Virus record (IMG/VR): IMGVR_UViG_3300035662_001191
Coordinates: 1-25,924 of that record
From: a virus
DNA length: 25,924 nucleotides
Reading direction: 5' to 3' (one strand)
Within the stretch, counting starts at the first letter, position 1. Every line of letters begins with the position of its first letter. Positions 2,421-22,287 of this stretch are shown here, piece by piece. The notes under the pieces were generated by a model. It saw only the letters and a program-made list of their open reading frames with translations. It was not told where the DNA came from and did not search any database. The position numbers and the translations under genes are program-made.

Positions 2421-2732
2421 ATGGAAACATTAGAAGAATTAAGACAAAAGGTAGCCCTATATGAACAGAACGGGGCTGCCAAGTTGTTTTACGCTTTGAA
2501 TAGAAAGGCAAATGAAATGGCTGATTTGCTTAATAAGACCAACTTATCCCATTTGCTTTTAGAAGATCCAAAAGACAAGACTTTTGAAAGATTAAAAGCT
2601 ATTTGGAATGATAGCTCTGCCTTGTCAACGGCAATTAAAGACTTAGGCATATCTGCTGGTGTTACTGGCGATGAGCAAAAGGATGTAGTCAAAAAGCCAT
2701 TTGTAGAAAGTATAGCTGAATCTAGAAGATAA
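2421..2732 (+). CDS. Small protein in the small-terminase position
   Basis: This 103-residue protein is mostly helical by composition, with a Leu/Lys/Glu-rich first half and a short basic end (ESRR). Its stop codon overlaps the start of the large terminase gene (TAATG), so the two are translationally coupled. Small terminase subunits, which bind the packaging site and regulate the large subunit, commonly occupy this position. No helix-turn-helix or other terminase-small signature can be seen, so that role rests on position alone. It could equally be another small packaging or head protein. Confidence 0.5.
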   Translation: METLEELRQKVALYEQNGAAKLFYALNRKANEMADLLNKTNLSHLLLEDPKDKTFERLKAIWNDSSALSTAIKDLGISAGVTGDEQKDVVKKPFVESIAESRR

Positions 2733-4780
2733 TGGCTGAAGTAATAAGTATATACGGAACCAACATTACCCTACCTGAATGTGATACTGAAGTAGAAAAT
2801 TGGTGTGAATCTAATCCTGCCGAACAGTATTGGAGAAGAAAAGAACTGCCTAATATTTTTCAATCGGTAGAATACGATAAGGAGGGTAACGCCTTGCTTG
2901 ATGCACAACAGGCAGCTTTTGCCACAAGAGAAGTAGATAGATGCAAGAAAGGGTTCTGGTTTTACAACAATGGTAAAGCCACATACATTACAGGTAAACA
3001 TTATTTTTACCTTCAATGGTGGAAGCTAGAGGATGATATCTATGGTGATTTTAGGGACGCAGATAGAAGATACTTTTTGTTTTTAGACCATTGGGAAAAG
3101 ACTCCGTGGTGCTTAGGTGTTGTGCGAGGCAAGAAACGCCGTGAAGGTGCGACATCTCAAGCAACATCAAATATAGTTTACGAGTGTATTTTCTATAAGA
3201 ATAGTTTTTGTGGTTTGACAAGTAAAACGCAAATAGATGCTAAGGCAGCCTTTACCAATATGATTTCTTTTGGTTACAGACAACTACCGGTATTCCTAAA
3301 GCCCAAGCAATTAAACAACAAAGACAGTGTAAGCGAACTTGTATTTGCCCATAAGTCAGTAGATATTAAAGGCACAAAGGGTAATGCAATTGATAATGAT
3401 ACCGGACATAGGTCTAGAATTGATTATCGTGCGCCTTCCTTGAACTCTTATGACTCTGGTCGTCTTAGTCGTGGTTTATTTGATGAAGGCGGGAAATGGG
3501 CAAAAGAAACGCCATTCTCGACATTCTTATCCATTGTAAGTAAAACATTGGTAAAAGGTGCCAAGAGAGTAGGATTTATTGAATGTCCATCAACCTCGAA
3601 TAGTATGACTAGCGGGGGTGAGGAGTTCAAGATAGTATGGGATGCTGCCGATCATTTGAAATATCCCAAGACGCCAAATCGTTTGGTTAAGTATTTCTCG
3701 CCCGCGTATGATGGTTATCTAGGCTTTATTGATCGATATGGTATGAGTGTAATCGGGCCACCAACAGAAGAACAATATAAATATTTAGTTGATAATTACG
3801 TTGGCGCAGGTGATTTAAATGAAGAAGATGTAAAGTTGGGAGCTAAAGAATATTTATTAGCCAAGCGTAAGCAATTAGAAGGCGTGCAGTTAGAGGAGGA
3901 GATAAGAATGAATCCTTTTGATGAAAGGGAGATGTTCATGCTTAGAAATACCAATTGCCATTTTGATGCGGTATTGCTTAACGACCTTTATGAAATAGCC
4001 AAAATTAATGAGAAAGAAGTGCTTGAATATGGTAATTGGACTTGGAAAGACGGAGTGCCATTTACAGAAGCAGTATGGGAAACAACTAGCAAAGAGGCAG
4101 CAAGATGGACTAGGGCTAAGAATTTTAAGATAACAAAAGGCGAAACATACACAAGAAGGGGTAATTTATTTTTGCCTAAAAATTCAGTGCAGTTTATAAT
4201 GGGATGTGATCCATTCCAAAACTCAGTTGTTGAACATGGAGAAGGTTCAAAGGCAACTAGCTTGGTTTTAAATAGATATGATATTGGCATAAACGATCCT
4301 GTTTATAATATGATGTTTGTTTCCAAATACCACGCAAGACCTAAGATGGTAGAACTATTCCATATGGATATGGTGCTACAATGCTTTGCTTATGGAGGCC
4401 AAATGCTAATAGAGGCAAAGATGGATGGCGGCTTGCGAAAGTTCTTTGTTGACAATTATTGCGAATCGTTTCTAATAAGATTGCCAGACAAATCAAATTA
4501 CGGAGTAGATCCTAATGCGGATAACAAAGCCTTAATGGTAAACCTTTGGGAACAATACATTTTGACGCATGGTAAAGAAGGGAAGATAATATACCCAGAA
4601 TTAATAGATGATAAATATGATGGCTTGATTAAATTCAATGTAAACGAAACAGAGGTATCTGACTTAGTAATGGGAGGCGGATGGACTTTATTTGCAGATT
4701 ATTACAAAAGAGCAAACTTTAAAAAACCTGAAGCCAAATTCAAATTGACTGACTTTTTCCCACAAACTAAACTAGCGTAA
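2732..4780 (+). CDS. terL: Terminase large subunit
   Basis: The product is the 682-residue DNA-packaging motor, which uses ATP to pump the genome through the portal and cuts the concatemer. An atypical Walker A region lies at residues 133-141 (GKKRREGAT) and a Walker B at 248-254 (GLFDEGG, D251/E252). A likely coupling motif follows at 285-289 (CPSTS). The C-terminal RNase H-like nuclease shows acidic residues in GCDPF (D493) and LIEAK (E561), plus a DDKYDG/VSDL region near residues 630-655. Length and domain order fit TerL. Both ends overlap neighbours by one base (TAATG): the small upstream ORF and, unusually, the first glycosyltransferase gene. Confidence 0.88.
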   Translation: MAEVISIYGTNITLPECDTEVENWCESNPAEQYWRRKELPNIFQSVEYDKEGNALLDAQQAAFATREVDRCKKGFWFYNNGKATYITGKHYFYLQWWKLEDDIYGDFRDADRRYFLFLDHWEKTPWCLGVVRGKKRREGATSQATSNIVYECIFYKNSFCGLTSKTQIDAKAAFTNMISFGYRQLPVFLKPKQLNNKDSVSELVFAHKSVDIKGTKGNAIDNDTGHRSRIDYRAPSLNSYDSGRLSRGLFDEGGKWAKETPFSTFLSIVSKTLVKGAKRVGFIECPSTSNSMTSGGEEFKIVWDAADHLKYPKTPNRLVKYFSPAYDGYLGFIDRYGMSVIGPPTEEQYKYLVDNYVGAGDLNEEDVKLGAKEYLLAKRKQLEGVQLEEEIRMNPFDEREMFMLRNTNCHFDAVLLNDLYEIAKINEKEVLEYGNWTWKDGVPFTEAVWETTSKEAARWTRAKNFKITKGETYTRRGNLFLPKNSVQFIMGCDPFQNSVVEHGEGSKATSLVLNRYDIGINDPVYNMMFVSKYHARPKMVELFHMDMVLQCFAYGGQMLIEAKMDGGLRKFFVDNYCESFLIRLPDKSNYGVDPNADNKALMVNLWEQYILTHGKEGKIIYPELIDDKYDGLIKFNVNETEVSDLVMGGGWTLFADYYKRANFKKPEAKFKLTDFFPQTKLA

Positions 4781-5400
4781 TGTCTTGGACTAACTTTTTT
4801 ACTAAAATATTTGTCATAAACTTGCCGGAAAGGACAGATAGGCTAATAGAGATTGCAGAGCAACTTTACAAATGGGGTATACCATACGAATTAATCAATG
4901 CGACAAAGCATGAAAATGGTGCAGAAGGCTTGCGTATAACAGTAGAAAACATATTTAGAGAAGCGATAAAAAACGAATGGGAGTCAGTTTTGATTTTTGA
5001 AGATGACGCTATGTTTGTTGATTCTTGTGGCAACCCTAACGATACAATGAATGAAGTTGTAAAGCAATTGCCTGCCATATGGGATATACTATATCTTGGG
5101 GCGCAATGCACAACAGGTTTTAAACTAAGAGCCTCGCCTAACCTTTTATTGGTAGAAAATGCATATGCAACCCATGCTTGGGCAATATCACTGCATGGAA
5201 TGAAGGAGATATTAGGGGCGGTTTTAGAAGCTCCAATAGACAATTGCATTGTCAGCAAGATACAATGCCATGGGACAACTTATATTACTTATCCACTTTT
5301 ATGCACTCAAAGGCCGGGCGTATCAGATATAGGTAATACCTTTATTGACTGGCAGCCATTTATAGAACAAAGATATTATCAAAAACTAGGAAATTTATGA
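4780..5400 (+). CDS. Glycosyltransferase family 25-like protein
   Basis: This 206-residue protein opens with the family 25 signature KIFVINLPERTDR (residues 9-21) and carries the acidic EDD at 74-76 (VLIFEDDA), expected to bind the metal and nucleotide sugar. GT25 includes LPS galactosyltransferases and the collagen hydroxylysine galactosyltransferases. No signal peptide or membrane segment is seen, so it should act in the cytoplasm. It is the first gene of an eight-gene glycan cluster. Its ATG overlaps the terminase stop (TAATG) and its own stop overlaps the next start (ATGA). Donor and acceptor cannot be read from sequence. Confidence 0.85.
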   Translation: MSWTNFFTKIFVINLPERTDRLIEIAEQLYKWGIPYELINATKHENGAEGLRITVENIFREAIKNEWESVLIFEDDAMFVDSCGNPNDTMNEVVKQLPAIWDILYLGAQCTTGFKLRASPNLLLVENAYATHAWAISLHGMKEILGAVLEAPIDNCIVSKIQCHGTTYITYPLLCTQRPGVSDIGNTFIDWQPFIEQRYYQKLGNL

Positions 5401-6092
5401 GAGAAATATGTATATGTATCCCAACTTGGGATAGGGTAGAAATGACATTGAAAAGTTTTAGTAAGGTATATGACGATCCTCGTGTTAAAAACATTGTAAT
5501 AGTGGACGACATGAGTGACTTGCCTATTTATAACCAATTAAAGCAAGAATGTGATAAGCTAAAAAAGGTTAAACTATTTAGAAATTTAAGCAACAGAGAT
5601 TGTTATGCAAATAAGTATGTGGCTATAAGCCTATCAACGACAGACTATTGTATCATACTTGATTCTGACAATGAGATAGACACTGACTATTTAGATAAGA
5701 TATATGAGCAAGAATGGGATAAAGACACGGTATTGGCACCAGATTGGGCAATGCCAATGTTCAATTACACAGAATACGCTAACCTAATTGTAACTAAGGA
5801 TAACCTATCTGAGTATATAGACAAACCAATGTTTGAAACTTGCTTAAACTGCATGAACTATTTTGTAAACAAACATTCTTATTGCGAAGTATGGGATGCG
5901 GAAATAGATCCGGTTACTAGCGATAGCTTGTTTCAGAATTACAATTGGTTAATGTCAGGCCGAATAATTCATATAGTTGACGGATTAAGATATAATCACC
6001 TAGTCCACAATCAATCTCATTATATAAATAATGTGCAAAGAACAGGAGATTTTAGAGAAAAATTAATAGAAAAAATTAGGGAATTAAATTAA
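5397..6092 (+). CDS. GT-A fold glycosyltransferase, family 2-like
   Basis: The 231-residue product begins with the N-terminal nucleotide-sugar-binding pattern of family 2 enzymes (CIPTWDR at 7-13, then NIVIVDDMSD at 32-41). A DxD metal-binding motif occurs at 89-91 (ILDSDNEID). It ends shortly after the GT-A core and lacks membrane segments, so it is a soluble transferase rather than a polysaccharide synthase. Its start overlaps the preceding gene (ATGA). The 20-base gap to the fucosyltransferase-like gene is the widest inside the cluster. Sugar specificity is unknown. Confidence 0.8.
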   Translation: MREICICIPTWDRVEMTLKSFSKVYDDPRVKNIVIVDDMSDLPIYNQLKQECDKLKKVKLFRNLSNRDCYANKYVAISLSTTDYCIILDSDNEIDTDYLDKIYEQEWDKDTVLAPDWAMPMFNYTEYANLIVTKDNLSEYIDKPMFETCLNCMNYFVNKHSYCEVWDAEIDPVTSDSLFQNYNWLMSGRIIHIVDGLRYNHLVHNQSHYINNVQRTGDFREKLIEKIRELN

Positions 6093-6112
6093 ATTAATTA
6101 ACTTTATCCCCT

Positions 6113-6850
6113 ATGGTAACCTTCAACAACGCGGGAAGAATGGGCAACTGGCTTTTTGAGTGTGCTACGGCTATGGCCTATGCGTTAAAATATGACTTAG
6201 ATTTTACCGTCCCAAATGAAACTAGCAACCCAAAATGGAACCCTATCTATTGCTCGCATTTAATTAATGACAGCTATAATCCCGGACTTGAAAAAGTTCA
6301 CTTATGGGAAACAAAGCATTCTTACGAAGAATTACCATACAATCCATCTTGGAAAGACAAGAATATAATTATTGAAGGTTACAGGCAGACAGCTAAATAC
6401 TTTGACAACTATCGTAATGAAATAATTTACTTGTTAAATTTCCCATATAAAAAAATGGATGGCTATGTTTCTGTTCATGTAAGACGAGGCGATTATGTAA
6501 CGTTAAGAGATAAGCATCCCGAAGTAACAATAGAGTGGTATGAAAAAGCAATGAGTATGTTTCCTGATTGTAAGTTTAAATTCTTTTCTGATGATATTGC
6601 TTGGTGTATGGAAGCGTTCAAGCATAGAGGTGATTGCGAATATTCTGGAAATACAGATGAGCAATCCGATCTTGTAGAAATGAGCTGGTGTGAGCATCAA
6701 ATATGTTCGCCATCTACATTCTCTTGGTGGGGTGCGTATTTAAATAAAAATGAAGATAAAAAAGTAATCTTTCCGCAGTTTTGGTTTAGTGAAGGATGGT
6801 GCGGATTAGACACTAGCGATATTGTTAAACCTGAATGGATAAAATTATGA
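6113..6850 (+). CDS. GT11-family alpha-1,2-fucosyltransferase-like protein
   Basis: This 245-residue protein carries the hallmarks of family 11: GRMGNWLFE at residues 8-16 (the usual form is GRxGNQLFQ), HVRRGDY at 122-128 binding the GDP-sugar, and a C-terminal CSPSTFSWWGAYLN. Family members move L-fucose, or another GDP-L-sugar, from the GDP donor onto galactose. The GDP-mannose 3,5-epimerase two genes downstream makes GDP-L-galactose-type sugars, which is a plausible donor here; this is inference. The tail overlaps the next gene by ATGA. The Gln-to-Trp change in the first motif is the only visible oddity. Confidence 0.87.
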   Translation: MVTFNNAGRMGNWLFECATAMAYALKYDLDFTVPNETSNPKWNPIYCSHLINDSYNPGLEKVHLWETKHSYEELPYNPSWKDKNIIIEGYRQTAKYFDNYRNEIIYLLNFPYKKMDGYVSVHVRRGDYVTLRDKHPEVTIEWYEKAMSMFPDCKFKFFSDDIAWCMEAFKHRGDCEYSGNTDEQSDLVEMSWCEHQICSPSTFSWWGAYLNKNEDKKVIFPQFWFSEGWCGLDTSDIVKPEWIKL

Positions 6851-7437
6851 ATGATTTAATTATGTTTGATTTTCAGCATTTCTATCAAAGAATTGCAAAA
6901 GAGTTACCCAACAACGCACGACTAGCAGAAGTCGGTATTGCAAATGGCGATAGTGTTATATATCTAGCACAAGAATTAAAAAACTTGGGTAAAGATTTTA
7001 AAATTTATGCAATAGATAATATGGGCTACGGTGGTTTTTTCCAAATGAAAACCATATACGAAAACATTATAAAAAGTGGTTTGGGTGATTATATAGAAGT
7101 AATGCCTTATGCAAGTTTAGATTGTGCTAAAATGTTTAATGATGGTTTTTTAGATTTTGTTTACATTGATTCATCACACACATACAAAGAAACAAAACAA
7201 GAGGTAATTGAATGGTATAATAAAGTAAAAGACGAAGGCATACTTGCAGGCCATGATTTTAATGCAGATGAAGTAAATAGAGCAGTGAGTCAAATTGTAC
7301 CAAAAACATTTACTAGAGCAGATATTGCAGATAGAGAATTTGAAGCAGAAAAAGTTTTACATTCAGAAGAAACTGCTAACGGATGGGGATTATGGTGGTT
7401 TAAAAAACAATGGTATTTAAAACTAAATAAATTTTAA
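6847..7437 (+). CDS. Class I SAM-dependent methyltransferase (Methyltransf_24-like)
   Basis: The ATG at 6847 is chosen because it makes an ATGA overlap with the preceding stop; an in-frame ATG at 6835 would add only four residues. The 196-residue protein shows the Rossmann SAM-binding loop AEVGIANGDSVIYL (residues 27-40), an acidic strand end (YAIDN) and the family pattern FVYIDSSHTYKET followed by DEGILAGHDF. Related enzymes are often found in sugar-modification and glycan clusters. A role methylating a sugar of the glycan made by the neighbouring transferases is the best guess. The acceptor is unknown. Confidence 0.78.
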   Translation: MNDLIMFDFQHFYQRIAKELPNNARLAEVGIANGDSVIYLAQELKNLGKDFKIYAIDNMGYGGFFQMKTIYENIIKSGLGDYIEVMPYASLDCAKMFNDGFLDFVYIDSSHTYKETKQEVIEWYNKVKDEGILAGHDFNADEVNRAVSQIVPKTFTRADIADREFEAEKVLHSEETANGWGLWWFKKQWYLKLNKF

Positions 7438-7438
7438 T

Positions 7439-8446
7439 ATGAAAACAGCTTTAGTTTGTGGCGCAGGGGGATTTATAGGAAGCCACATGGTTAAAAGATT
7501 GAAGAAAGATGGTTATTGGGTCAGAGGTGTAGATTTAAAATATCCAGAACACTCCAATACTCTAGCAGATGAATTTATTATTGGAGATTTAAGAGATGAA
7601 AAATTAGTAAGCAAAGTTTTGTGGTGTCCTTATCAACATTATTTAGGAGATAAGGATAATGCATTTGATTTAGTAATTCAAATGGCTGCCGATATGGGCG
7701 GGGCTGGGTACATTTTTTCAGGAGATAACGATGCAAATGTTATGCATAATTCAGCTTTAGTTAATTTGAATATAGCTTTTTATGCATCTAAATGTAATGT
7801 TAAAAAATTATTCTTTTCATCTAGCGCTTGTGCTTACCCGCAAGAAATACAAGAGTCAACAGATAATAAAGGTTTAAAAGAAAGCGATTGTTTTCCAGCA
7901 AATCCAGATAGCCCTTATGGCTGGGAAAAAATATTTAGCGAAATATTGTTTGATTCATTTTATAGAAACTATGGTCTTGATATAAGAATAGCTAGGTTTC
8001 ATAACATATTTGGAGAAGAAGGTACATGGGAAGGGGGAAAAGAAAAAGCTCCAGCAGCATTAACTAGAAAAGTTTGCGAAGCAGAAGATGGTGGAGAAAT
8101 AGAAATATGGGGTGATGGATTGCAAACAAGATCATTTTTATATATAGATGAATGTATAGAAGGTGTAATGAGATTGCTTGAAAGCGATTATAGAAAACCA
8201 GTTAATATTGGTTCAGATGAAATGGTATCAATAAATGATTTAGCTAAAACAATAATTAAAATTTCAGGTAAAAATATTAAAATAAAGAATATAGAATCTA
8301 ATGCAATAGGTGTAAGAGGAAGAAATTCAAATAACGAGTTGATAGAGCAAGTTTTAGATTGGCGTCCAAACCAGCCTTTAAAAAATGGTTTAGATAATTT
8401 ATATGTTTGGATTAATGAGCAAGTTAACAAAAACAAAAATATATGA
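7439..8446 (+). CDS. GDP-mannose 3,5-epimerase-like short-chain dehydrogenase
   Basis: This 335-residue extended SDR enzyme has the NAD-binding CGAGGFIGSH at residues 7-16 and the catalytic YxxxK at 160-164. It also has features specific to GDP-mannose 3,5-epimerase as remembered from the plant enzyme: AADMGGAGYI, catalytic Cys131 in SSSACAYP, RFHNIFGEEGTWEGG, EKAPAA with Lys203, WGDGLQTRSF and NIGSDEMVS. The family converts GDP-D-mannose to GDP-L-galactose and GDP-L-gulose. The match runs nearly end to end, so the family call is strong; the exact product is not proven. It lies one base after the methyltransferase gene and overlaps the FkbM gene. Confidence 0.88.
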   Translation: MKTALVCGAGGFIGSHMVKRLKKDGYWVRGVDLKYPEHSNTLADEFIIGDLRDEKLVSKVLWCPYQHYLGDKDNAFDLVIQMAADMGGAGYIFSGDNDANVMHNSALVNLNIAFYASKCNVKKLFFSSSACAYPQEIQESTDNKGLKESDCFPANPDSPYGWEKIFSEILFDSFYRNYGLDIRIARFHNIFGEEGTWEGGKEKAPAALTRKVCEAEDGGEIEIWGDGLQTRSFLYIDECIEGVMRLLESDYRKPVNIGSDEMVSINDLAKTIIKISGKNIKIKNIESNAIGVRGRNSNNELIEQVLDWRPNQPLKNGLDNLYVWINEQVNKNKNI

Positions 8447-9078
8447 TGATATCATTTGACTATTTAGTCAACAAGCATAAGTTAGATATAAAAGGCGTTC
8501 TTCATTTAGGCGCATCAACAGGGCAAGAAAGAAAAGAATACGATAATTATTGTAAGGGGGATGTTTTGTGGGTTGAAGCAATACCATCTGTTTATTTAGA
8601 ATTGGTAAAAAACATAGAACCTTATGAATACCAAAGAGCTTTTAACGCTTGTCTAAGTAATGTAGACAATGACGAAGTGGTTTTTAATGTGTCAAATAAT
8701 GAAAGCCAAAGTTCATCAATGCTTGAGCTTGGTACTCACCTTTTAATCCATCCTGAAGTACATTACATAGAACAGATAACCATGAAAACTAAAAGAGTTG
8801 ATACTCTGTTTAAGGGTTATAGTTTTAAAAATATAAACTTTCTTAACGTAGATCTTCAAGGTGCAGAGCATCTAGCAATAGAAGGGATGGGCGATTTAAT
8901 TAAGAATATAGATTACGCATTGCTAGAAGTAAACCAAAAAGAAACCTACAAAGGGTGTATGCTTATTCCTGAGTTAGATTATTTCATGATGCAGCGCGGG
9001 TTTGAAAGAGTTGAAACGGGGGATTGGGTTGCCGATACATGGACTGACGCACTTTATGTAAGAAAATTTAATATATGA
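8443..9078 (+). CDS. FkbM-family methyltransferase
   Basis: The 211-residue protein fits the FkbM family of O-methyltransferases. It has a SAM-binding start GVLHLGASTGQE (residues 18-29), the acidic strand WVEAIP near 43, the mid-protein NESQSSSML, and NFLNVDLQGAEHLAIEGM followed by ALLEVN. FkbM-type enzymes methylate hydroxyls on sugars and secondary metabolites. Overlaps at both ends (ATGATG at the start, ATGA at the stop) place it firmly in the glycan operon. With the earlier methyltransferase it suggests a doubly methylated, possibly capped, glycan. The substrate is inferred from context only. Confidence 0.87.
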   Translation: MMISFDYLVNKHKLDIKGVLHLGASTGQERKEYDNYCKGDVLWVEAIPSVYLELVKNIEPYEYQRAFNACLSNVDNDEVVFNVSNNESQSSSMLELGTHLLIHPEVHYIEQITMKTKRVDTLFKGYSFKNINFLNVDLQGAEHLAIEGMGDLIKNIDYALLEVNQKETYKGCMLIPELDYFMMQRGFERVETGDWVADTWTDALYVRKFNI

Positions 9079-9896
9079 TAGACGTGCCGCAGGAGTTTAT
9101 GCCTACCATAAACACGGTTTATCCATTTGAAAATTATACCATTTTTGAAGAATGGGTTTCAAGTAGATTTATACCAGAGTTTAATGGAAGGGCGTATTTA
9201 AGAATCCATTGGACATCATATCATGTAAATAACAACTACGGGAATGATCCAGTAGCTAGAAAAAGCCTGCAAGACTATGTAGATGCGTTACCTAGAAATC
9301 AGCAATATTGGACTATTTGCCAATATGATGATGGGGTTTTGGTTGACTTTAAAGATTTAGATATATTGGTATTTAATATGAGTAAGAAAGAAGGGGTAGA
9401 AATACCTTTGCTTTGTATGCCACATAGTTTTAAATGGAATGGTAAAAAAAGTATTTTTGCCTCTTTTATTGGCACTAATACTCATCCAATAAGAAACTAT
9501 GTATTTAGTATTCAAAATCCAGATTATTACATATCTCAAGAACAACACGATGTTAATAGGTTTTGCGGTATTGTCAGCCAATCTATATTTGGATTATGCC
9601 CTAGAGGATATGGGTTAAACAGCTTTAGAATAGCGGAGTGCCTCCAATACGAAACTATTCCTGTTTATATTAGCGATGAGTTTATTAATTGTTTCGATGC
9701 CAATTTTGAAGATTATGGGGTAATTATAAAAGCAGAAGATGCCCATAAAATAGTTCCAATTTTAAATAGTATCCCAAGTATAGATATAGTTGAAAAGCAA
9801 CTAAAAATTAAAGAAATATACAATAAGTATTATACTTATCAAGGGGCTTTAAACAACATAATACTGAAGCTAAATGAAGATAGCGGTAATTCATAA
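9075..9896 (+). CDS. Exostosin/GT47-like glycosyltransferase
   Basis: This 273-residue protein contains the characteristic exostosin C-terminal signature at residues 172-204: FGLCPRGYGLNSFRIAECLQ, then IPVYISDEFI. That region forms the GT-B nucleotide-sugar site in GT47 enzymes. Upstream, SIFASFIGTNTHPIRN (126-141) matches the usual strand before it. No membrane anchor is present, unlike the Golgi enzymes of eukaryotes. It overlaps the previous gene by ATGA and the next by 23 bases. Donor and linkage are unknown. Confidence 0.8.
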   Translation: MIDVPQEFMPTINTVYPFENYTIFEEWVSSRFIPEFNGRAYLRIHWTSYHVNNNYGNDPVARKSLQDYVDALPRNQQYWTICQYDDGVLVDFKDLDILVFNMSKKEGVEIPLLCMPHSFKWNGKKSIFASFIGTNTHPIRNYVFSIQNPDYYISQEQHDVNRFCGIVSQSIFGLCPRGYGLNSFRIAECLQYETIPVYISDEFINCFDANFEDYGVIIKAEDAHKIVPILNSIPSIDIVEKQLKIKEIYNKYYTYQGALNNIILKLNEDSGNS

Positions 9897-10419
9897 CTTT
9901 GACGCTAGCGATAGATTTGATAGATTAATGAATGAATTTAAGGAGCAGGGTATTAAAGATTTTTCCTTTTTCCCGGCTGTATATGATTCTCATTCGGTTA
10001 AAAGGGCAATTAACGTAGCCCACAAGCAGTGCGTTCAGTATGCCAAAGATACGGGGTTGCCTGAAATATGTATAATGGAGGACGATGTTCATTTTACCAA
10101 TCCGGATAGTTTTTCGTACTTTTTAAGAAATAAGCCATTAGATTTTGATATATATTTAAGTGGCATATACATTGGAGAGATTCGTCAAGACCAAACAGTA
10201 GATAATTTTACCGGTTTTCACTGTTACATAGTCAACAGCAAGTTTTACGATACATACCTAAATACGCCTTTGGATGAGCATATAGACCGTGCGTTAGGGG
10301 GTTTAGGGAAGTATGTGGTTTCCGATCCTTTTATCGCTATTCAATACAACGGATTTTCATATAACACAAAAATGGAAATGAATTATGATAGTTTATTGGA
10401 AGGCAGAAAATTATATTAA
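9874..10419 (+). CDS. Second GT25-like glycosyltransferase, short
   Basis: The 181-residue product resembles family 25, with an N-terminal IAVIHNFDASDRFDRL and an acidic EDD at 69-71 (CIMEDDVHF). It is shorter than, and only distantly similar to, the other GT25-like protein in the cluster, so this is not a recent duplication. The start lies 23 bases inside the exostosin-like gene, implying translational coupling. It is the last gene of the glycan operon; an AT-only hairpin and T-run follow its stop. Confidence 0.7.
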   Translation: MKIAVIHNFDASDRFDRLMNEFKEQGIKDFSFFPAVYDSHSVKRAINVAHKQCVQYAKDTGLPEICIMEDDVHFTNPDSFSYFLRNKPLDFDIYLSGIYIGEIRQDQTVDNFTGFHCYIVNSKFYDTYLNTPLDEHIDRALGGLGKYVVSDPFIAIQYNGFSYNTKMEMNYDSLLEGRKLY

Positions 10420-10454
10420 ATTAATTAATATAATTTAATTTGTTTTTTTTATTT
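10416..10454 (+). terminator. Possible weak terminator after the glycan operon
   Basis: An 8-base perfect inverted repeat (TTAAATTA at 10416-10423, TAATTTAA at 10431-10438) is followed by a T-rich tract. The stem has no G-C pairs, so it would be weak and may only partly end transcription. Confidence 0.35.
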
Positions 10455-10471
10455 ACTTTTAATTAATTTTG
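10439..10471 (+). promoter_or_regulatory. Bacteroidetes-type promoter for the portal and head operon
   Basis: TTTG at 10439-10442 and TAATTTTG at 10464-10471 are separated by 21 bases, matching the Bacteroides -33/-7 consensus. They lie 24 bases before the portal ATG, in the largest gap of the first half of the window. This is the best promoter match seen in the window. It predicts a very short leader without a Shine-Dalgarno site. Confidence 0.55.
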
Positions 10472-10495: not shown

Positions 10496-12850
10496 ATGCA
10501 ACAGGCCACCAACACATACCCTAACCAGCAGATAGATCCTAGAGAAAAAGGATACGATTGGATACTACAATACTGCAAAGCTGCGTGGGGTGATTCAAGA
10601 GGGTATGTTCCTAACAATATGTTAAATTTTGGTCAATCCAAAATGAACGAAATTAGAGAATATGCATTAGGTAGACAAAGTACAACTAAATATAAAAAAC
10701 TTTTAAATGTCGATGAACAACAAGATAAAACTTGGTTGAACATTGATTGGACTCCGCCATCTTTTTTAACAAAGTTTAGAGAGATAGCAATATCAAAATT
10801 AGTTCAAAGAAGATATGATATAAATGCATTTGCGGTAGATCCAATTGCTAAAAGTGAAGAAGATAATTACTTTACCGAAATGAAGGTAAAGATTTTAATG
10901 AGAGAAGCAGCACAAAAAGCAGGTAATCAAGAATTGCTTAATAGCCCAGTGTTAGCGCCTCAGCCGGGCGAAGCTCAAGATTTAGAGCAATTAAAAATGG
11001 AGGAGCAATTTGGATACAAGCACGTTATGTCTATGGAAGCAGAGATGGCAGCATCTTTAGCAATGTATCAAAATAAATTTGAAGAAAAAAGAAAACGCAC
11101 AATAGAAAATCTTTTTGATTTTGGAATGGGCGGTTATACAGAATACATAGATGAAAATGGTCAAGTAAAATTAAGAGAGATTAACCCTGAAAATATGGTG
11201 TTGTCTTATTGTGCTAAAAATGATTTTTCAGATTTAGTGCATTGGGGTGAAGTTAGAGAAGTATATGTAGGTGATCTTGCTCCGTGGTTTACAGTAGAGC
11301 AAATGAATCAAATTGTACAAAGCGTAGCAGGTCGTTTTGGTAATCCATCAAACTTTATGTATGGTACTGACTATTCTAAATATTGGAATAGATTTAAAGT
11401 GCTTGTTTTGGATTTTGAATTTTTATCTTGGAACGATTATACATACAAAGAAGAAGTAGACAACAGAGGCAATGTAAGATTTGGCAAGACAAAATATCAA
11501 GACGCAACTAAGCTATCTGTAACCAAAGAAGGTGTTATTGATAAAATGGGAACTATACCTAACATGATAGATTTTACCATGAAAGGTCAAGCAGAACCAG
11601 TTTTCATGCCTGTTACTCGTAAGGTAGTTTACAAGTGTAAGTGGCTTATCCAAACGGACTATATGTACGATTGGGGTATGTCAGAGAATCAAATCAGAAA
11701 ACCATCATCTTGGTGGGATACTAAATTAAATATTCAGCTTTATTCTTGGAATTTTTATAAGATGCGCTTTGCTGGTATTACAGAAAGATTAATTCCACTT
11801 GAAGATAAAGCTAGTCTTACTTGGTTTAAATTACAAAATATGTCAAATAAGTTAATTCCTTATTTGATTAACATTGATTTAAACGCACTTGAGGGAGTTG
11901 ATTTTGGTGGTGGTGGAGAAAAAATGAATCCTACAAAAGTTATGGATTTTATTTTCTCAAACTTTGTTGTGCCTTACAGATCAACAGATTTATTAAGTCA
12001 AAATCCTAATTACAAACCTGTATCCATTGAGGCATCAGGTCAATTAGCTGTGTTTGGTCAATTATATCAAGAGTTGCAAAATACTTTGGATATGATGCGT
12101 CAAATATCTGGATTAAATGAATTAACAGATGGTTCTACTCCAAATGCTAAGACATTGGTTCCAGTTGCAAACGCAGCAATGGAAAGTACAAACAATGCTT
12201 TGTATCTATTAGCTTTTGCAGATAAACAATTAATACAAGATTTAGCAGATGCTATTGTTAGCAAGGTTCAGATTGCAGTTAAATTAGGTAAAGTGGAAGG
12301 TTATGCTAGGTCATTAGGTGAAGAAACTGTTAAATTTTTCCAAATTAATCCTGATATTTCAATTCATGAGTTTGGTATTTTTATTGAAGATGTACCTTCT
12401 AGTTTTGAAAGACAACAATTAATTCAAGAATTAAACATAAGAGATAGCCAAGGACTTATAGAGCCAGAAGATAAGATATTAGTAATGAGTACTAAGAATT
12501 TAAAGATGGCGTCTATGATCTTAGCTTATAGAATTAAAAAGCGCAGAGAGAAATTACAAGAATTTGAATTACAAAAAATTCAGGAAGCATCTCAAGGTAA
12601 TGCTATGGCAGTTCAGGTTGCAGAGCAAGAGAAGCGTGTTACATTACAAACTCAATTAGAGGTCGATATTGCTCGTATCAATGCAGAAAAACAATGGGAT
12701 TACATTATCCAAATGGGCAAGAAAGACAAAGATATTCAAGAAGCAGAAATTCAAAAAGAAGCAAAAGTTATTGCTCAAAGAATACAAGCAGATGCTAGAA
12801 TAGTAGTAAGCGAAAAGAAACAAATACAAACACCCAAAATAGAAAAATAA
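10496..12850 (+). CDS. Portal protein
   Basis: At 784 residues this fits a large phage portal, the dodecameric ring through which DNA enters and leaves the head. The evidence is partly positional: it is the first gene of the head module, upstream of scaffold-like and major capsid genes. The sequence supports it with a conserved-looking N-terminal part (LNIDWTPPSFLTKFREI near residues 79-95), a Trp/Tyr-rich middle, and a long C-terminal helical region (about 650-784) rich in Gln/Glu/Lys that could form the barrel. No clip or stem motif can be assigned by eye. The stop overlaps the ferritin-like gene (TAATG). Confidence 0.68.
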   Translation: MQQATNTYPNQQIDPREKGYDWILQYCKAAWGDSRGYVPNNMLNFGQSKMNEIREYALGRQSTTKYKKLLNVDEQQDKTWLNIDWTPPSFLTKFREIAISKLVQRRYDINAFAVDPIAKSEEDNYFTEMKVKILMREAAQKAGNQELLNSPVLAPQPGEAQDLEQLKMEEQFGYKHVMSMEAEMAASLAMYQNKFEEKRKRTIENLFDFGMGGYTEYIDENGQVKLREINPENMVLSYCAKNDFSDLVHWGEVREVYVGDLAPWFTVEQMNQIVQSVAGRFGNPSNFMYGTDYSKYWNRFKVLVLDFEFLSWNDYTYKEEVDNRGNVRFGKTKYQDATKLSVTKEGVIDKMGTIPNMIDFTMKGQAEPVFMPVTRKVVYKCKWLIQTDYMYDWGMSENQIRKPSSWWDTKLNIQLYSWNFYKMRFAGITERLIPLEDKASLTWFKLQNMSNKLIPYLINIDLNALEGVDFGGGGEKMNPTKVMDFIFSNFVVPYRSTDLLSQNPNYKPVSIEASGQLAVFGQLYQELQNTLDMMRQISGLNELTDGSTPNAKTLVPVANAAMESTNNALYLLAFADKQLIQDLADAIVSKVQIAVKLGKVEGYARSLGEETVKFFQINPDISIHEFGIFIEDVPSSFERQQLIQELNIRDSQGLIEPEDKILVMSTKNLKMASMILAYRIKKRREKLQEFELQKIQEASQGNAMAVQVAEQEKRVTLQTQLEVDIARINAEKQWDYIIQMGKKDKDIQEAEIQKEAKVIAQRIQADARIVVSEKKQIQTPKIEK

Positions 12851-13335
12851 TGGTAAAGTCTTTATTATCAGCAAACATGAGAAAAGGTTTGCAAGAGGCA
12901 CTTCAAATGGAATTATATCAATCTAACCTTTGGAAGCATTTGGCTAACCAATTGCAAAGATTAGGTTACTTTGGTAGTCAGAAATATTTCTTAGATGAAA
13001 GTGCAGAAGAATTGACGCATTACCAAATTATCGTTGACTTTATGAATGATATGGGTGATTGCGCTAGTTTGCCTGAAATTGAAGCAATGAAGGATAAGGT
13101 TGAATCAATTGGCGATGCATTAGAAATTGGGTACGAAACAGAGCTAGATGTATTAAATATGTACAAAGAGTTACAAAAGCAAGCTCAAGAAGAAGATTGC
13201 GCAGTTGGCATTTTCTTACAGCAATTTGTTACGATTCAAGTAAAAGCAGTAGGTCATTACGGAGATTTATTAGCTAAATACAAAGTTGCTGAATACACTA
13301 AAGAGCTTTTAGAATTTGATCAACACATTAATTAA
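12850..13335 (+). CDS. Ferritin-like diiron protein
   Basis: This 161-residue protein matches the four-helix ferritin fold. Helix A has MELYQS (Glu21), helix B AEELTH (Glu54, His57), helix C YETELDV (Glu98) and helix D FVTIQV (Gln130). Aligned by eye with FtnA, these are the ferroxidase ligands Glu17, Glu50, His53, Glu94 and Gln127. The third-site Glu130 is replaced by Ala133, as in eukaryotic H-ferritin. It would store or oxidise iron, or protect DNA from Fenton chemistry. The short C-terminal helix and head-module position also allow a repurposed structural protein. It is coupled to the portal gene by TAATG. Confidence 0.78.
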   Translation: MVKSLLSANMRKGLQEALQMELYQSNLWKHLANQLQRLGYFGSQKYFLDESAEELTHYQIIVDFMNDMGDCASLPEIEAMKDKVESIGDALEIGYETELDVLNMYKELQKQAQEEDCAVGIFLQQFVTIQVKAVGHYGDLLAKYKVAEYTKELLEFDQHIN

Positions 13336-15902: not shown

Positions 15903-15912
15903 ATCAACAGGA

Positions 15913-15949
15913 GGGGTGGTTTTAGGCCACCCTTTCTTTTATTTTTATT
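15913..15949 (+). terminator. Intrinsic terminator after the capsid gene
   Basis: GGGTGG at 15914-15919 pairs with CCACCC at 15927-15932 across a 7-base loop, followed by a T-rich run (TTTCTTTTATTTTT). It begins 11 bases after the capsid stop. Confidence 0.8.
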
Positions 15950-15962
15950 TAAACGATACGGG

Positions 15963-16523
15963 ATGCACAACGAAATTTGGAAGCCAATTTTGGGCGTTAA
16001 AAACGATTTATATGATGGGTATTACGAAGTAAGTAATTTAGGTAGGGTAAAAATGCTTCCTAGATTATTGAATCATAGTAAAGGCATGAGGGTGTCTAAA
16101 GAAAAAATAGTAACAGGGAGCAATAGTCATGGTTATAAAATTGTTTCTTTTAAAAAAGATGGCATTAAAGCGGTAGTTGCTGTCCATGTGCTAGTAGCTA
16201 GGGCTTTTATTAAAAATCCATGTCCTGATAGATTTAAAATTGTTAATCATTTAAATAGTGATAGGGCTGATAATAGGGCTGAAAATTTAGAGTGGTGCGA
16301 CCACAGTCGAAATGCAAAACATGCTATTGAGGCTGGTAGGGTAAAAATATTACAAGGTTCTTCTAGATCTTCTGCCATTTTGAACGAAGATAAAGTTTTG
16401 GCAATAAAATTGCTGTATAAAACAGGAAAGTTTTCTTATTGGAAACTTGCTGAAATATTTGAGATAGGTAAAACAACTATTCAAGGTATTATTAATGGAA
16501 CCAAATGGACTCATGTAGTCTAA
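15963..16523 (+). CDS. HNH homing endonuclease (NUMOD4-HNH-HTH)
   Basis: This 186-residue protein has three recognisable parts. Residues 5-30 are a NUMOD4 DNA-binding motif (EIWKPI, then YYEVSNLGRVK). Residues 75-121 are an HNH nuclease with His75, Asn95-His96 (VNHLNSDRADNRAENLEWC) and Asn104. Residues about 140-186 are a helix-turn-helix-like tail (YWKLAEIFEIGKTTIQGIIN). It is a free-standing selfish endonuclease that spreads by cutting alleles lacking it. It sits between the capsid terminator and a structural-region gene, a typical insertion point. It is probably intact. Confidence 0.9.
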   Translation: MHNEIWKPILGVKNDLYDGYYEVSNLGRVKMLPRLLNHSKGMRVSKEKIVTGSNSHGYKIVSFKKDGIKAVVAVHVLVARAFIKNPCPDRFKIVNHLNSDRADNRAENLEWCDHSRNAKHAIEAGRVKILQGSSRSSAILNEDKVLAIKLLYKTGKFSYWKLAEIFEIGKTTIQGIINGTKWTHVV

Positions 16524-18592: not shown

Positions 18593-21500
18593 ATGGCAAT
18601 ACAAGGTCTTTTTACGGGTGAAGTAAAAATAAGAGAATTAAATGGTGTGTTAATTGCCACCGATGGTATTGTTGATTCTGTTGGTAATATTACTTCAGGA
18701 ACAGCAGGTACTTCTGGTTCATCTGGTACTTCTGGTACTTCCGGCACGGGTGGTACTTCTGGATTTGCAGGAACAGCAGGTAGACTTGTAAATAATTATA
18801 TAGCAATAGCAGGACAAACTAATTTCAATGTGCCAAGTGGATATGATAATGGCATGATAGATGTTTTCGTTAATGGAGTAAAATTATTTCCAAGCGATTA
18901 TACAGCGACAGATGGTTACAATGTAATACTTAATAATGCTTTGCAAGTAGGCGATAATGTAGAAATAGATAATTTTGTATCTAGCTATGTTTCTTCTTCT
19001 GGTTCATCTGGAACGGCGGGTACCGCAGGTACTTCTGGTACAACAGGTACCTCTGGTATTGGCGGTGATAAATATTATACAATATCTGTTTCAATTTTTA
19101 CATTAGGAACGGGCGGTTATCTTATGGTTTCTCCGGGCTTATCATACTCCCCTGCTCAATCAATTATTGTAGTACATGATAATACTCACTTCCAAGAATG
19201 TGAGGTAGTTTCTTATAATGTTGTTACAGGAGAATTAGTATTTGGTGATCCTAGCAGAGTTGTTGGAGGTGGAACATTTTCTAGTTGGGTAGTAAATTTA
19301 GATGGAGCCTCTGGTGGTGATGGTACTTCTGGTACAAGTGGTAGCTCTGGTTCAAGCGGTAGCTCTGCTACAAGTGGCACTAGCGGTACTACTGGTACAT
19401 CTGGTAGTTCAGGTAGCTCTGGTTCAAGTGGTTCTAGCGGTTCATCTGGTTCAAGTGGTTCTAGCGGAAGCAGTGGCTCATCAGGTTCATCAGGAACATC
19501 TGCTACTAGTGGAAGCAGTGGTACTTCTGGCATAGATGGTACTTCTGGTACATCAGGAAGCAGTGGTTCATCAGGGTCTAGTGGAACATCGGGTTCTTCA
19601 GGAACATCTGCTACTAGCGGAACAACAGGGACTAGCGGGACAGCAGGTACAACAGGTACATCTGGTCTTTCAGGAGATAGATATAGAACAACATCTACTT
19701 CAACATTTACTTTAGGCAATGCAGGAACTATTACCGTAGGAACACTATTGGGATATAGCCCTGTTCAATCAATAATTATAGTCTATGATACTTCAAACTT
19801 TCAAGAGTGCGAGGTGGTATCATATGATGCAAATACAGGTTCTTTAACATTTTTGGCTCCTACTAGAACAGTAGGTAGTGGAACATATTCGTCATGGACA
19901 GTGAACTTAGATGGCGCTAGTGGTGGAGATGGTTCAAGCGGCACTTCGGGTACTTCTGGTTCATCAGGTTCAAGCGGCACTTCTGGTACCACTGGTACTT
20001 CTGGTACCACAGGTACTTCCGGTACCACAGGTCGTAATGGTATAGATGGTTCTTCAGGAGCTTCTATTGCTAACTGGTATGGTGCGTTTACAAGTACATC
20101 CACTCAAGTGGTAACTGGCGCAAATGTAGCGACAGCAATTACATATACGAATCAAGAGCTAGCTTTTGGTATATCTTACTCAGGTTCTCAAATAACAGTT
20201 CAACATACTGGTATCTATGAAATAGGATATTCACTTCAAATAGAAAAAACACAAGGCACAGCTGCTGACGTTAATATTTGGTTAGTTAAAAATGGTACAG
20301 AAATTATTAGAACTGATTCTATCTTAGGCTTAGTATCTAATTCATCAAAATCATTGCCATTCGTTTCTATTATAGATAGTGCAACTGCAAATGATTATTA
20401 CCAAGTTTATTTCCAATCAACTAATGAGCATGTTCAAATTACAGCAGTAGCTGCAAGTGGTTCAATCCCAGCAGCACCATCAATCATTACCAATATCAAA
20501 CAAATTGGCATAGCTGTTGGTACAACTTCTGGTACTTCTGGAACATCTGGCAGCTCTGGTACCACAGGTACAAGTGGTTCTTCTGGCTCTAGTGGATCAT
20601 CAGGTTCATCAGGTTCAAGTGGAAGCAGTGGATCTTCTGGAACAACGGGGACAAGTGGTTCTTCGGGTACCACAGGAACTTCGGGTACGACTGGTACTTC
20701 GGGTTCAAGCGGTACATCTGCAACAAGTGGTTCAAGTGGAACTAGTGGTCTTTCTGGTACTTCTGGTGCGCAAGGAACTAGCGGTACCACTCCCGTAGGT
20801 GTAATAACAGGCTCAGGTACAACAAACTACCTACCTAAGTTTACAGGTGCAAGTACAATAGGAGATAGCGTAATACAAGAAGTGAGTTCTAATATTGGAA
20901 TAGGTGTAAGTCCTTCATATAAATTAGATGTAAATGGGGCTGCTCAATTTAGAGATGATATTCGCTTCAGCACTACAAATAGTTCTATTGGTTATACAGA
21001 TGCAATTAGATTTGTAGAATTAGGTGTAGCTACAAGAATGACATTATCTTCAGGCAATTTAGGAATCGGAACGACTTCGCCTAATCATTTATTATCATTA
21101 TCTGCAACTGCAAGTAATGCAACAGTAATAGGATTATACAATACTTTTAATGATGCTACAAATAGAAACTGGGGAATAGCTACAAACCAAATTGCATTTG
21201 GTGATTTCCATATTATGCAAAGCAATGCTAAAGATGGCAACCCTATTTCTGCTGGTACATCAAGATTAATGATTAATGCATCTGGTAACGTTGGAATCGG
21301 AACGAGTACAAGTTTAAGTAATAAATTTACTGTTAATGGTACAATAGCAAATGGTTTTAATTGGGGAGTTTCTGGTTCTACCTTAAATATAGTTCCAGAT
21401 GCAGTAGGCACAAATGGAATTACTTTATCTGCAAGTTATTGGAGTGATGGATATGGTCCTATAAAGTTTAATACAAGTGATACCGAACGAATGAGAATCA

Positions 21501-22183
21501 CATCGGGGGGTCAAATATTGTTTCAAAAGACAGCTGCTAATAATACAGATACAGGAGTAGTTTGGTTTCCAAATGATTATTTTTGTGTTACTAATAATTC
21601 AGCAGACTCAGGTGATAGAGTTGTACTTATAAACAGACAAAATTCAGACGGTACTTTAATTGATTTTAGACACGCAAATGTAACTGAGGGAACTATATCT
21701 GTTTCAGGAAGTACTGTTTCCTATAATGGTGGTCACCTTTCAAGATATTCACAAACGGAATTAAATGAAAAAATAGAAGGTTTATTAAAGGGTACAGTAA
21801 TGTCAAATCTTGATAAAATGGCTGAATGGATAAACCCAGAAACAAAAGAGCCTTATGAAAATGAGCAGTTAAACTGTATGAAGATTTCAGATGTAGAAGG
21901 TGATAAAAATGTAGCAGGTGTTTTTGTTAATTGGGAATATGATTCTGAATTGTTAACAAATGATATGAACATAGCAATGACAGGTGATATGATTATAAGA
22001 ATTGCACAAGGAGTAGTAGTAGAAAAAGGTCAATTATTGATTTCAGCAGGTGATGGAACTGCAAAACCACAAGAAGATGATATTGTTAGAAGTAAAACAA
22101 TTGCAAAAGTTACATCTAATCATATTACTTGTGTTTATGAAGATGGTTCTTATTGTGTACCTTGCGTATTAATGGCTTGTTAA
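18593..22183 (+). CDS. Collagen-like tail fibre with multiple globular modules
   Basis: A 1196-residue fibre. Parts in order: N-terminal anchor (1-35); short Gly-X-Y arm (36-63); fibre domain with IDVFVNGVKLFPSDYTA (65-130), a type common in aquatic phage fibres; short arm; an 80-residue module (159-242); long GTSG/GSSG arm (243-361); the same module again (362-446); arm (441-489); a jelly-roll-like C1q/BclA-type domain (493-640); arm (643-731); beta repeats with NVGIGT-type motifs (735-1045); and a C-terminal domain (1046-1196) ending in YCVPCVLMAC. The last resembles, from memory, the end of marine phage fibres with DVEGD and GDGTAKPQ motifs. It probably binds the host surface. Confidence 0.88.
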   Translation: MAIQGLFTGEVKIRELNGVLIATDGIVDSVGNITSGTAGTSGSSGTSGTSGTGGTSGFAGTAGRLVNNYIAIAGQTNFNVPSGYDNGMIDVFVNGVKLFPSDYTATDGYNVILNNALQVGDNVEIDNFVSSYVSSSGSSGTAGTAGTSGTTGTSGIGGDKYYTISVSIFTLGTGGYLMVSPGLSYSPAQSIIVVHDNTHFQECEVVSYNVVTGELVFGDPSRVVGGGTFSSWVVNLDGASGGDGTSGTSGSSGSSGSSATSGTSGTTGTSGSSGSSGSSGSSGSSGSSGSSGSSGSSGSSGTSATSGSSGTSGIDGTSGTSGSSGSSGSSGTSGSSGTSATSGTTGTSGTAGTTGTSGLSGDRYRTTSTSTFTLGNAGTITVGTLLGYSPVQSIIIVYDTSNFQECEVVSYDANTGSLTFLAPTRTVGSGTYSSWTVNLDGASGGDGSSGTSGTSGSSGSSGTSGTTGTSGTTGTSGTTGRNGIDGSSGASIANWYGAFTSTSTQVVTGANVATAITYTNQELAFGISYSGSQITVQHTGIYEIGYSLQIEKTQGTAADVNIWLVKNGTEIIRTDSILGLVSNSSKSLPFVSIIDSATANDYYQVYFQSTNEHVQITAVAASGSIPAAPSIITNIKQIGIAVGTTSGTSGTSGSSGTTGTSGSSGSSGSSGSSGSSGSSGSSGTTGTSGSSGTTGTSGTTGTSGSSGTSATSGSSGTSGLSGTSGAQGTSGTTPVGVITGSGTTNYLPKFTGASTIGDSVIQEVSSNIGIGVSPSYKLDVNGAAQFRDDIRFSTTNSSIGYTDAIRFVELGVATRMTLSSGNLGIGTTSPNHLLSLSATASNATVIGLYNTFNDATNRNWGIATNQIAFGDFHIMQSNAKDGNPISAGTSRLMINASGNVGIGTSTSLSNKFTVNGTIANGFNWGVSGSTLNIVPDAVGTNGITLSASYWSDGYGPIKFNTSDTERMRITSGGQILFQKTAANNTDTGVVWFPNDYFCVTNNSADSGDRVVLINRQNSDGTLIDFRHANVTEGTISVSGSTVSYNGGHLSRYSQTELNEKIEGLLKGTVMSNLDKMAEWINPETKEPYENEQLNCMKISDVEGDKNVAGVFVNWEYDSELLTNDMNIAMTGDMIIRIAQGVVVEKGQLLISAGDGTAKPQEDDIVRSKTIAKVTSNHITCVYEDGSYCVPCVLMAC
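19067..19318 (+). repeat. Shared fibre module, copy A
   Basis: About 84 residues: FTLG, YSPAQSIIVV, NFQECEVVSY-type strand, VVNLDGASGGDG. Copies B and C lie at 19676-19930 (fibre 1) and 24230-24487 (fibre 2). Each is flanked by Gly-X-Y arms, so the module behaves as an exchangeable unit. It looks like a small beta sandwich; no family is recognised. Confidence 0.85.
19319..19675 (+). repeat. Main collagen-like Gly-X-Y arm of fibre 1
   Basis: About 118 residues of almost unbroken Gly-X-Y where X and Y are nearly all Ser or Thr, with no proline. Three Gly-to-Ala changes occur in the context SATS (residues 259, 304, 340). The Ser codons are mixed (TCT, TCA, AGC, AGT). At 19421-19467 a 27-base unit is exactly repeated over 20 bases. 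Confidence 0.92.
19676..19930 (+). repeat. Shared fibre module, copy B
   Basis: Residues 362-446 of fibre 1. It shares FTLGNAGTI, GYSP, SIIIVYD, TGSLTF, TVGSGTYSSWTVNL and GASGGDGSSGTSG with copy C in fibre 2, to which it looks closer than to copy A beside it. Confidence 0.85.
20519..20785 (+). repeat. Distal collagen-like Gly-X-Y arm of fibre 1
   Basis: Residues about 643-731 of fibre 1 repeat GTSG, GSSG and GTTG and contain a fourth SATS interruption (Ala710). The arm links the jelly-roll-like domain to the C-terminal beta region. Shorter arms lie at 18698-18781, 19001-19063 and 19913-20059. Confidence 0.9.
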
Positions 22184-22236: not shown

Positions 22237-22287
22237 ATGAAATATTGGTACATTAATCAATTATTTAAATTTGTAGCTACAAAATAA
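22237..22287 (+). CDS. Possible 16-residue leader peptide or gene remnant
   Basis: ATG at 22237 opens a 16-codon frame (MKYWYINQLFKFVATK) whose TAA overlaps the ATG of the GIY-YIG gene (TAATG). It could couple translation into that gene, or be the truncated start of a gene interrupted there. WYINQLF slightly recalls the opening of the small fibre-region protein at 23084 (NFQFVISQL). Weak on its own. Confidence 0.3.
   Translation: MKYWYINQLFKFVATK

Follow-up and report, generated by a model that had tools for sequence, protein, structure and literature searches.

An eight-gene glycan island between terminase and portal in a group of uncultured phages, and the case for a particle glycosylation pathway

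What purpose might a run of glycan-building genes serve when it is lodged between the genes for packaging and for the head of a phage? This question is raised by the uncultured virus record IMGVR_UViG_3300035662_001191 from IMG/VR, which was analysed as a single window of 25,924 bases and in which eight genes (g1 to g8, window positions 4780-10419) separate the terminase large subunit gene (terL) from the portal gene. The island probably encodes a self-contained cytosolic pathway that glycosylates a protein of the phage particle, a reading in which the acceptor, the sugars and the order of the steps are what we infer.

An earlier note, made from the sequence, had described an eight-gene island at this place, and the island is real, with all eight open reading frames (ORFs) intact, on the + strand and where the note had put them. 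To the left lies terL (2732..4780, +; phrog_6681, E 8e-71), whose stop is joined to the start of g1 in a genuine TAATG junction, confirming the coupling of the first island gene to the terminase stop; to the right lies the portal gene (10496..12850, +; phrog_6547, E 1e-68). Judged by ORF coordinates, five of the seven internal junctions overlap, by 4 bases each at g1/g2, g5/g6 and g6/g7, by 16 at g3/g4 and by 23 at g7/g8, and the gaps amount to 1 base at g4/g5, 20 at g2/g3 and 76 between g8 and portal. The g2/g3 spacing jumps in loci L004-L006. At 0.31-0.36 in 1-kb windows, the G+C content of the island is similar to that of its flanks, and neither tRNA nor Rfam RNA was detected in the window. 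The glycosyltransferase and methyltransferase genes thus sit within the packaging/head gene block, as would be expected of a virion-glycosylation cassette.

The gene content is also as previously described, namely five glycosyltransferases from four families, two methyltransferases and one epimerase; these calls stand on Pfam matches, and the two weakest (g7 and g8) were checked with AlphaFold models. Two of the transferases belong to GT25: g1 (4780..5400, +; PF01755, 36.7 bits, cut-off 24) and the divergent g8 (9874..10419, +), which at 24.5 bits is barely above the same cut-off. Their EDD motif is invariant in 12 of 12 aligned sequences for g1 and in 21 of 21 for g8. The best PDB sequence match of g1 is COLGALT1 (E 2.5e-4). 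The fold was compared for g8 only of the two GT25 proteins, and its model (mean pLDDT, a per-residue confidence score, 93.5) has a GT-A fold and matches mimivirus R655, beta-1,4-galactosyltransferase and human COLGALT1, so that g8 is GT25-like as far as its predicted structure goes; R655, for its part, has only putative status as a collagen glycosyltransferase (PMC9546862). The g2 protein (5397..6092, +) is a GT2 glycosyltransferase (PF00535, 43.6 bits, cut-off 23.3), whilst g7 (9075..9896, +) is of the exostosin type, GT47 (PF03016, 36.1 bits, cut-off 33.4), and its model, of moderate confidence (pLDDT 76.9), matches EXT1/EXT2 at E 1.3e-9, by which it is predicted to be exostosin-like in fold also. 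The fifth transferase, g3 (6113..6850, +), is of the alpha-1,2-fucosyltransferase type, GT11 (PF01531, 80.2 bits, cut-off 23.9; phrog_2644, E 2.5e-39), and no solved structure is related to it by sequence. The methyltransferases are g4 (6835..7437, +), a class-I enzyme of the Methyltransf_24 family (PF13578, 58.8 bits, cut-off 26.3), and g6 (8443..9078, +), of the FkbM family (PF05050, 51.2 bits, cut-off 22.7; TIGR01444, 47.1 bits, cut-off 37.7).

The remaining gene, g5 (7439..8446, +; Pfam Epimerase, 129.2 bits, cut-off 20.9), gives the pathway its most specific clue. By sequence comparison this phage-encoded protein is closest to GDP-mannose 3,5-epimerase (GME): each of its top five PDB matches is a GME, with E values no worse than 1.8e-85 (2c59, E 8.7e-88), the first non-GME entry following at 3e-24. 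The alignment with 2c59 covers residues 6-333 of 335 and retains the SSAC-YP, YxxxK and GG-EKAPAA segments, which we take to hold the catalytic residues. The best NCBIfam model is GDP-L-fucose synthase, at 109.7 bits far under its 500-bit cut-off, and a second g5 allele, from record G006, is likewise closest to GME (E 5.7e-78). This similarity implies GDP-L-galactose as a donor. Known GT11 members use GDP-L-fucose, of which GDP-L-galactose is the 6-hydroxy analogue, and it is therefore a reasonable inference that the product of g5 is handed to g3, whose donor would be a GDP-L-sugar.

How widely the arrangement occurs was assessed in IMG/VR, where searches with TerL and portal returned 51 and 41 loci, respectively, which were merged by contig. 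These searches supplied 49 of the 51 contigs that hold both terL and portal, and the other two are L166, found with g8, and L225, found with TerL among bacterial contigs; contigs that end inside the interval were not counted, and eight that start inside portal (L076, L079, L080, L081, L084, L088, L089 and L091) were left out. Many contigs are near-identical, and the counts are of contigs, not of independent events. The island is present in 35 of the 51, always in the order g1 to g8, with g1, g2, g3, g6, g7 and g8 in all 35 and g4 and g5 in 33 each. This shared order shows that the island is no chance assembly. The other 16 contigs have none of the eight genes, and their terL-portal gaps measure 21-1047 bases; in the annotation of one isolate, Flavobacterium phage elemoF, the two genes lie 8 bases apart, also without the island. 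Carriers recovered with TerL have a TerL at least 65% identical to that of the window, and the 16 non-carriers one of at most 55%; the other carriers are L085-L087 (TerL 32%, portal 63%) and L166 (portal 54%). The island is thus a trait of one phage group and not a sporadic insertion. The expectation that a comparison of terL-portal synteny would reveal a variable insertion holds for the whole island, which is absent from the 16, but not for its gene order, which is the same in every carrier.

Purifying selection acts on all eight genes. In comparisons with six close relatives (L002, L003, L022, L026, L027 and L031), the ratio of non-synonymous to synonymous substitution rates (dN/dS) is 0.01-0.11 for the island genes, swapped alleles excepted, which is alike or slightly higher than the 0.02-0.04 of TerL and portal. 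Swapped alleles give 0.19-0.34 for g5 (five relatives) and 0.17 for g4 (one relative), and in the more distant L007 and L013, for which many dS values are saturated, g4 reaches 0.16-0.23 and g6 up to 0.29. That the epimerase gene was exchanged between lineages is evident from the comparison of the window with G006, in which DNA identity of 90-97% drops to 63-76% over 7482-8482, corresponding to g5, and recovers immediately. In the g5 tree the window stands apart from its relatives by TerL and g8, and a tree that keeps those six rows together is rejected (approximately unbiased test, p-AU 3.5e-5). Decoration genes vary elsewhere as well: L016 has a protein in which FkbM and Methyltransf_24 are fused, plus one more FkbM gene, L045 likewise one more FkbM gene, and L166 a GT8 gene and further methyltransferase-like genes. 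The pattern is one in which the transferase core is constant and the decoration genes can be exchanged. In L085, g1, g2, g5, g7, g8 and portal are 50-63% identical to their counterparts in the window, g3 and g4 42%, and g6 and TerL 32% each; the sequences of L085-L087 would allow a recombination boundary at the terL/island junction.

The pathway proposed from these assignments would assemble a short methylated oligosaccharide on a phage particle protein during late infection. The g5 enzyme would convert GDP-mannose of the host to GDP-L-galactose (or GDP-L-gulose); one of the GT25-type enzymes, g1 or g8, would act first or add to the chain, which g2, g7 and the other GT25 would lengthen; g3 would transfer the GDP-linked L-sugar; and g4 and g6 may O-methylate sugar hydroxyls. 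The idea of a dedicated, soluble, multi-step glycan pathway, put forward in the earlier note, is borne out by the presence of its own donor-sugar enzyme, by the lack of membrane segments and by the position in the packaging/head block. As to the membrane, the highest 19-residue hydropathy among the eight island proteins is 1.08, a value that indicates no membrane segment in any of them. Export-type families were sought in 17 records (15 island carriers, G011 and G021), several of which are fragments, so that absence is not proof: the lipid-linked initiator PF02397, the GtrA family PF04138 and the flippase PF01943 each scored 0 of 17. Neither a Wzx-type export route nor serotype conversion of the gtr type is therefore indicated, and the claim that membrane proteins and a flippase are missing holds for the island proteins and for these records, respectively. 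Soluble enzymes lacking a lipid carrier or flippase are, again, what a virion cassette would contain.

Several observations weigh against a particle target or loosen the tie between the island and the virion genes, and they concern transcription, the acceptor and the settings of related genes. The earlier note had argued from late expression with the virion genes. No terminator-like site on the + strand was found between terL and portal, and a weak one was seen within the portal ORF; a further intrinsic-terminator-like site follows the major capsid protein (MCP) gene (15909..15937, +; a 13-pair stem and then a T-rich tail) and is suggestive only. In the region, 6 such sites were counted versus 7.5 expected from shuffles, and a scan for promoters of the sigma-70 type gave no signal (50 sites versus 58.6 expected). 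A putative promoter of the Bacteroidota type, TTG-N21-TAATTTTG (10440..10471, +), lies 25 bases before portal; the string recurs 25 bases before portal in G006 and, identically, 18 bases before the endonuclease gene that precedes portal in G003. In an alignment of ten distinct g8-portal spacers, an exact TAnnTTTG is seen by eye in 7, a version one base shorter in L083 and L087, and none in L019; TAnnTTTG is the consensus reported for the flavobacterial sigma-A box (PMC9723704). Ahead of the gene that precedes terL, a scripted search for the motif matched 1 of 32 distinct sequences (L031), and by eye TATATTTG is found in the window, L002 and L005 and TATCTTTG in L022 and L027. With a promoter-like site before portal, portal and MCP need not share the island transcript: going by these motifs, orf2, terL and the island may form one transcription unit and portal onwards another. 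Late expression of both putative units is plausible; what the promoter-like site unsettles is their expression as one.

With regard to the acceptor, the window encodes two long collagen-like proteins rich in G-T/S-S repeats (18593-22183 and 23672-25624; PF01391), and since GT25 is also the collagen galactosyltransferase family, their co-occurrence with the island was followed. Over the stretch of up to 10 kb covered after portal, Gly-x-y runs occur in relatives whose portal is 86-99% identical, except in the short 97% contig L091, and are not present in nine loci at 82-83% portal identity (L069, L070, L071, L072, L079, L080, L081, L082 and L089), nor in L083 and L085. They are also missing from the 72-kb G010 and the 50-kb G007, G008 and G017; the repeat of G009 is of another kind. 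As several island carriers lack them, the collagen-like fibres were rejected as a universal acceptor. Two N-x-S/T sites of the MCP had looked conserved in carriers (L037, L038, L039 and L042 are among the non-carriers), but both are lacking in L166, G008 and G019 and one in L055, and these sequons were rejected likewise. No acceptor common to all carriers was found; of the other structural genes compared, most occur in non-carriers as well. A hydroxylase suspected by eye in L045 (4079-4789) and L166 (3045-3695) has no Pfam match and was dropped.

Cassette genes also travel together outside this group, near structural genes in some lineages but not in others. In the 73-kb contig L171, whose sole portal match is remote and lies far away, the order g1-g2-g3-x-g6-g7-g8 is kept, but the cassette follows a primase gene and is itself followed, after about 3.6 kb, by a gene similar to those for short tail fibres; in L214, homologues of g2, g3 and g7 lie between RecT-like and ParB-like genes, which speaks against a role confined to the virion. 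From these two settings it follows that the cassette genes are not always found in virion operons. The sister-type contigs G011, L172 and L173 hold another glycan module, which ends in a g8 homologue and stands one gene upstream of a GroES-like gene that is followed by virion structural genes; in G011, where terL and portal have no island between them, it comprises a GDP-mannose 4,6-dehydratase (386 bits), a GT2-like place, and cupin-like and methyltransferase-like genes below the Pfam cut-offs. Two further sister fragments of about 50 kb, G012 and G013, have no match to any island gene family. A g7 homologue lies in the 136-kb contig L204, and of the nine such loci L216-L224, the four examined (L216, L219, L223 and L224) all have homologues of g2 and g7, and three of the four also of g3, in larger sugar clusters. 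The virion target was thus favoured but not settled, the relatives in other phages not always standing beside virion genes.

According to the principal rival, the pathway modifies a surface glycan of the host (lipopolysaccharide or capsule) and so blocks superinfection or re-adsorption to debris. Bacterial surface-glycan loci typically hold GT11, GT25, FkbM and GME, and in L216 and L219 the large clusters that contain homologues of g2, g7 and g3 also have epimerase-like genes and, as judged by eye, genes resembling GDP-mannose dehydratase. The T4-like cyanophage S-SCSM1 has a cluster with GME, an alpha-1,2-fucosyltransferase and other transferases, which its authors read as cell-wall modification (PMC9602691). 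A phage could, moreover, borrow the lipid carrier and the flippase of its host. Against this stand the null result for all three export-type families, the absence of membrane segments from the island proteins and the place of the island in the packaging/head block, and a host-surface target is considered unlikely, if still a serious contender.

The remaining alternatives are less probable. Pyle et al. in 2024 (cited in PMC12619734) are said to have described virus-encoded glycosyltransferases that modify DNA with diverse glycans, and glycosylation of phage DNA could be suspected from L214, where part of the cassette lies among DNA-metabolism genes, and from g4, whose best PHROG, phrog_2675, is a partial match (E 2e-14) that carries the name 'DNA methyltransferase'. 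The thymidylate-synthase/hydroxymethylase family PF00303 scored 0 of 17 records (12 carriers and 5 non-carriers), other routes of base hydroxylation and the known DNA glucosyltransferase families not having been searched; there is accordingly no obvious hydroxylated base, and a DNA target is improbable. Soluble enzymes of the island families can act on small molecules, and the island might instead make a small glycosylated metabolite or modify a host protein, unrelated to the virion; five different transferases suggest a chain, though, and no other biosynthetic enzyme accompanies them, which makes this similarly improbable. Finally, the coming and going of decoration genes might mark the island as cargo, neutral or in decay, without a role under selection, a view so strongly contradicted by purifying selection and the fixed gene order that it is scarcely credible. 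Glycosylation of a particle protein therefore continues to be preferred.

As to the host, these uncultured phages are probably phages of Bacteroidota. The nearest isolates by TerL and portal, at below 60% identity (26-29% in the best rows), infect Flavobacterium, Cellulophaga, Tenacibaculum and Maribacter, and a sister-type TerL without the island occurs in one contig binned as Sphingobacteriia (L225), a weak clue. Among 50,697 phage isolate records, g7 is matched in 4 and g3 in 102, and neither g8 nor the MCP in any. No g7 relative was confirmed in bacterial genome contigs, a search for short exact peptide patterns and hence a weak one.

Other features of the window and its relatives may be recorded. 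Between portal and a scaffold-like gene, a ferritin-like protein is encoded at 12850-13335 (PF00210, 62.8 bits; PDB ferritins, E 2e-10), a homologue of which lies upstream of terL instead in the sister phages G012 and G013; ferritin-like enzymes have been reported in gut phages (PMC8008677). Homing endonucleases of the HNH/NUMOD type are found at 15963-16523 and 22287-23078, and in relatives such genes were seen by eye between g6 and g7 (G010) and before portal (G009 and G003). An edge ORF at 10-2388 has no Pfam or PHROG match and is perhaps the end of a very large protein, its counterpart in G003 being 3,718 amino acids long; close relatives fall into those about 91% identical to it and those about 25% identical, so that it, too, is swapped. 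Outside the island, G003 encodes on the opposite strand (L113, 15035-17839) a protein of 934 amino acids with glycosyltransferase group-1 and GT9-like regions (PF00534 and PF01075), shared with G006 at 80%, and also a calcineurin-like phosphoesterase (L114, 1128-2135; PF00149) that recurs in G010, G006 and, by eye, L214. At the ends of the 72-kb record G010 (L097 and L100), the first and last eight ORFs match in length, in mirror order and on opposite strands, representing either an inverted terminal repeat or an assembly artefact.

Among the titles listed in searches of open-licence PubMed Central (PMC) papers, none describes the island, the lineage or the idea, and the reports of glycosylated virion proteins that were found concern few phages, all of them mycobacteriophages (PMC11256854; PMC12619734). 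In the present uncultured lineage a complete pathway, down to a predicted enzyme for the rare sugar donor, appears to be fixed and to evolve by swaps of decoration genes. Should the virion prove to be the target, phages beyond the mycobacteriophages would be shown to produce particle glycans and to vary them by means of small gene sets that can be cloned, and experiments could then ask directly what such coats are for, be it protection, adhesion to host glycans or evasion.

Known systems resemble the island in part. In the mycobacteriophages Che8 and Rita, the major capsid proteins are reported to carry glycans (PMC11256854; PMC12619734), and phage-encoded glycosyltransferases are common to both cases, virion glycosylation being reported there and proposed here; in Maravista, of the same F1 cluster, the transferase genes lie near the 3' end of the genome and not in the head block (PMC11256854). 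The T4-like cyanophages S-SM2, with GT11 beside GT25, and S-SKS1, with a GT47 homologue near two epimerases, have homologues about 29-35% identical to g3 and g7, but their clusters adjoin metabolic genes, for example for phosphate uptake, rather than lying between terL and portal. Unlike the GME of PDB 2c59, the predicted epimerase g5 is phage-encoded and stands within a glycan island. In the algal virus PBCV-1, virus-encoded transferases and methyltransferases (A064R and A061L) build the methylated end of the virion glycan, and chlorovirus antigenic variants differ in its outer part; that glycan is N-linked, and one protein there combines two of the transferases with a methyltransferase (PMC9614988). 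Exchange of g5 and of the methyltransferases would likewise vary the outer glycan while the five-transferase core stays fixed. A tentative and rather speculative extension is that the particle glycan contains L-galactose and O-methyl groups, and that epimerase and methyltransferases are swapped as alleles to give 'glycotypes' akin to the chlorovirus variants.

The closest parallel in kind is offered by Corndog, a cluster O mycobacteriophage in which an O-methyltransferase and three transferases lie between portal and the capsid protease, and whose authors suggest that this cassette could put methyl and glycan modifications on the capsid (PMC4351075). Both are small transferase and methyltransferase cassettes in the head block beside portal. 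Corndog has four genes, on the other side of portal, none of them named as a sugar-nucleotide enzyme in the passages that describe them, whereas eight genes with a GME-like enzyme are found here, in a lineage related to Flavobacterium and Cellulophaga phages. By analogy, the island may be regarded as a cassette of the Corndog kind, but larger, equipped with its own donor-sugar enzyme and carried by an uncultured group of phages.

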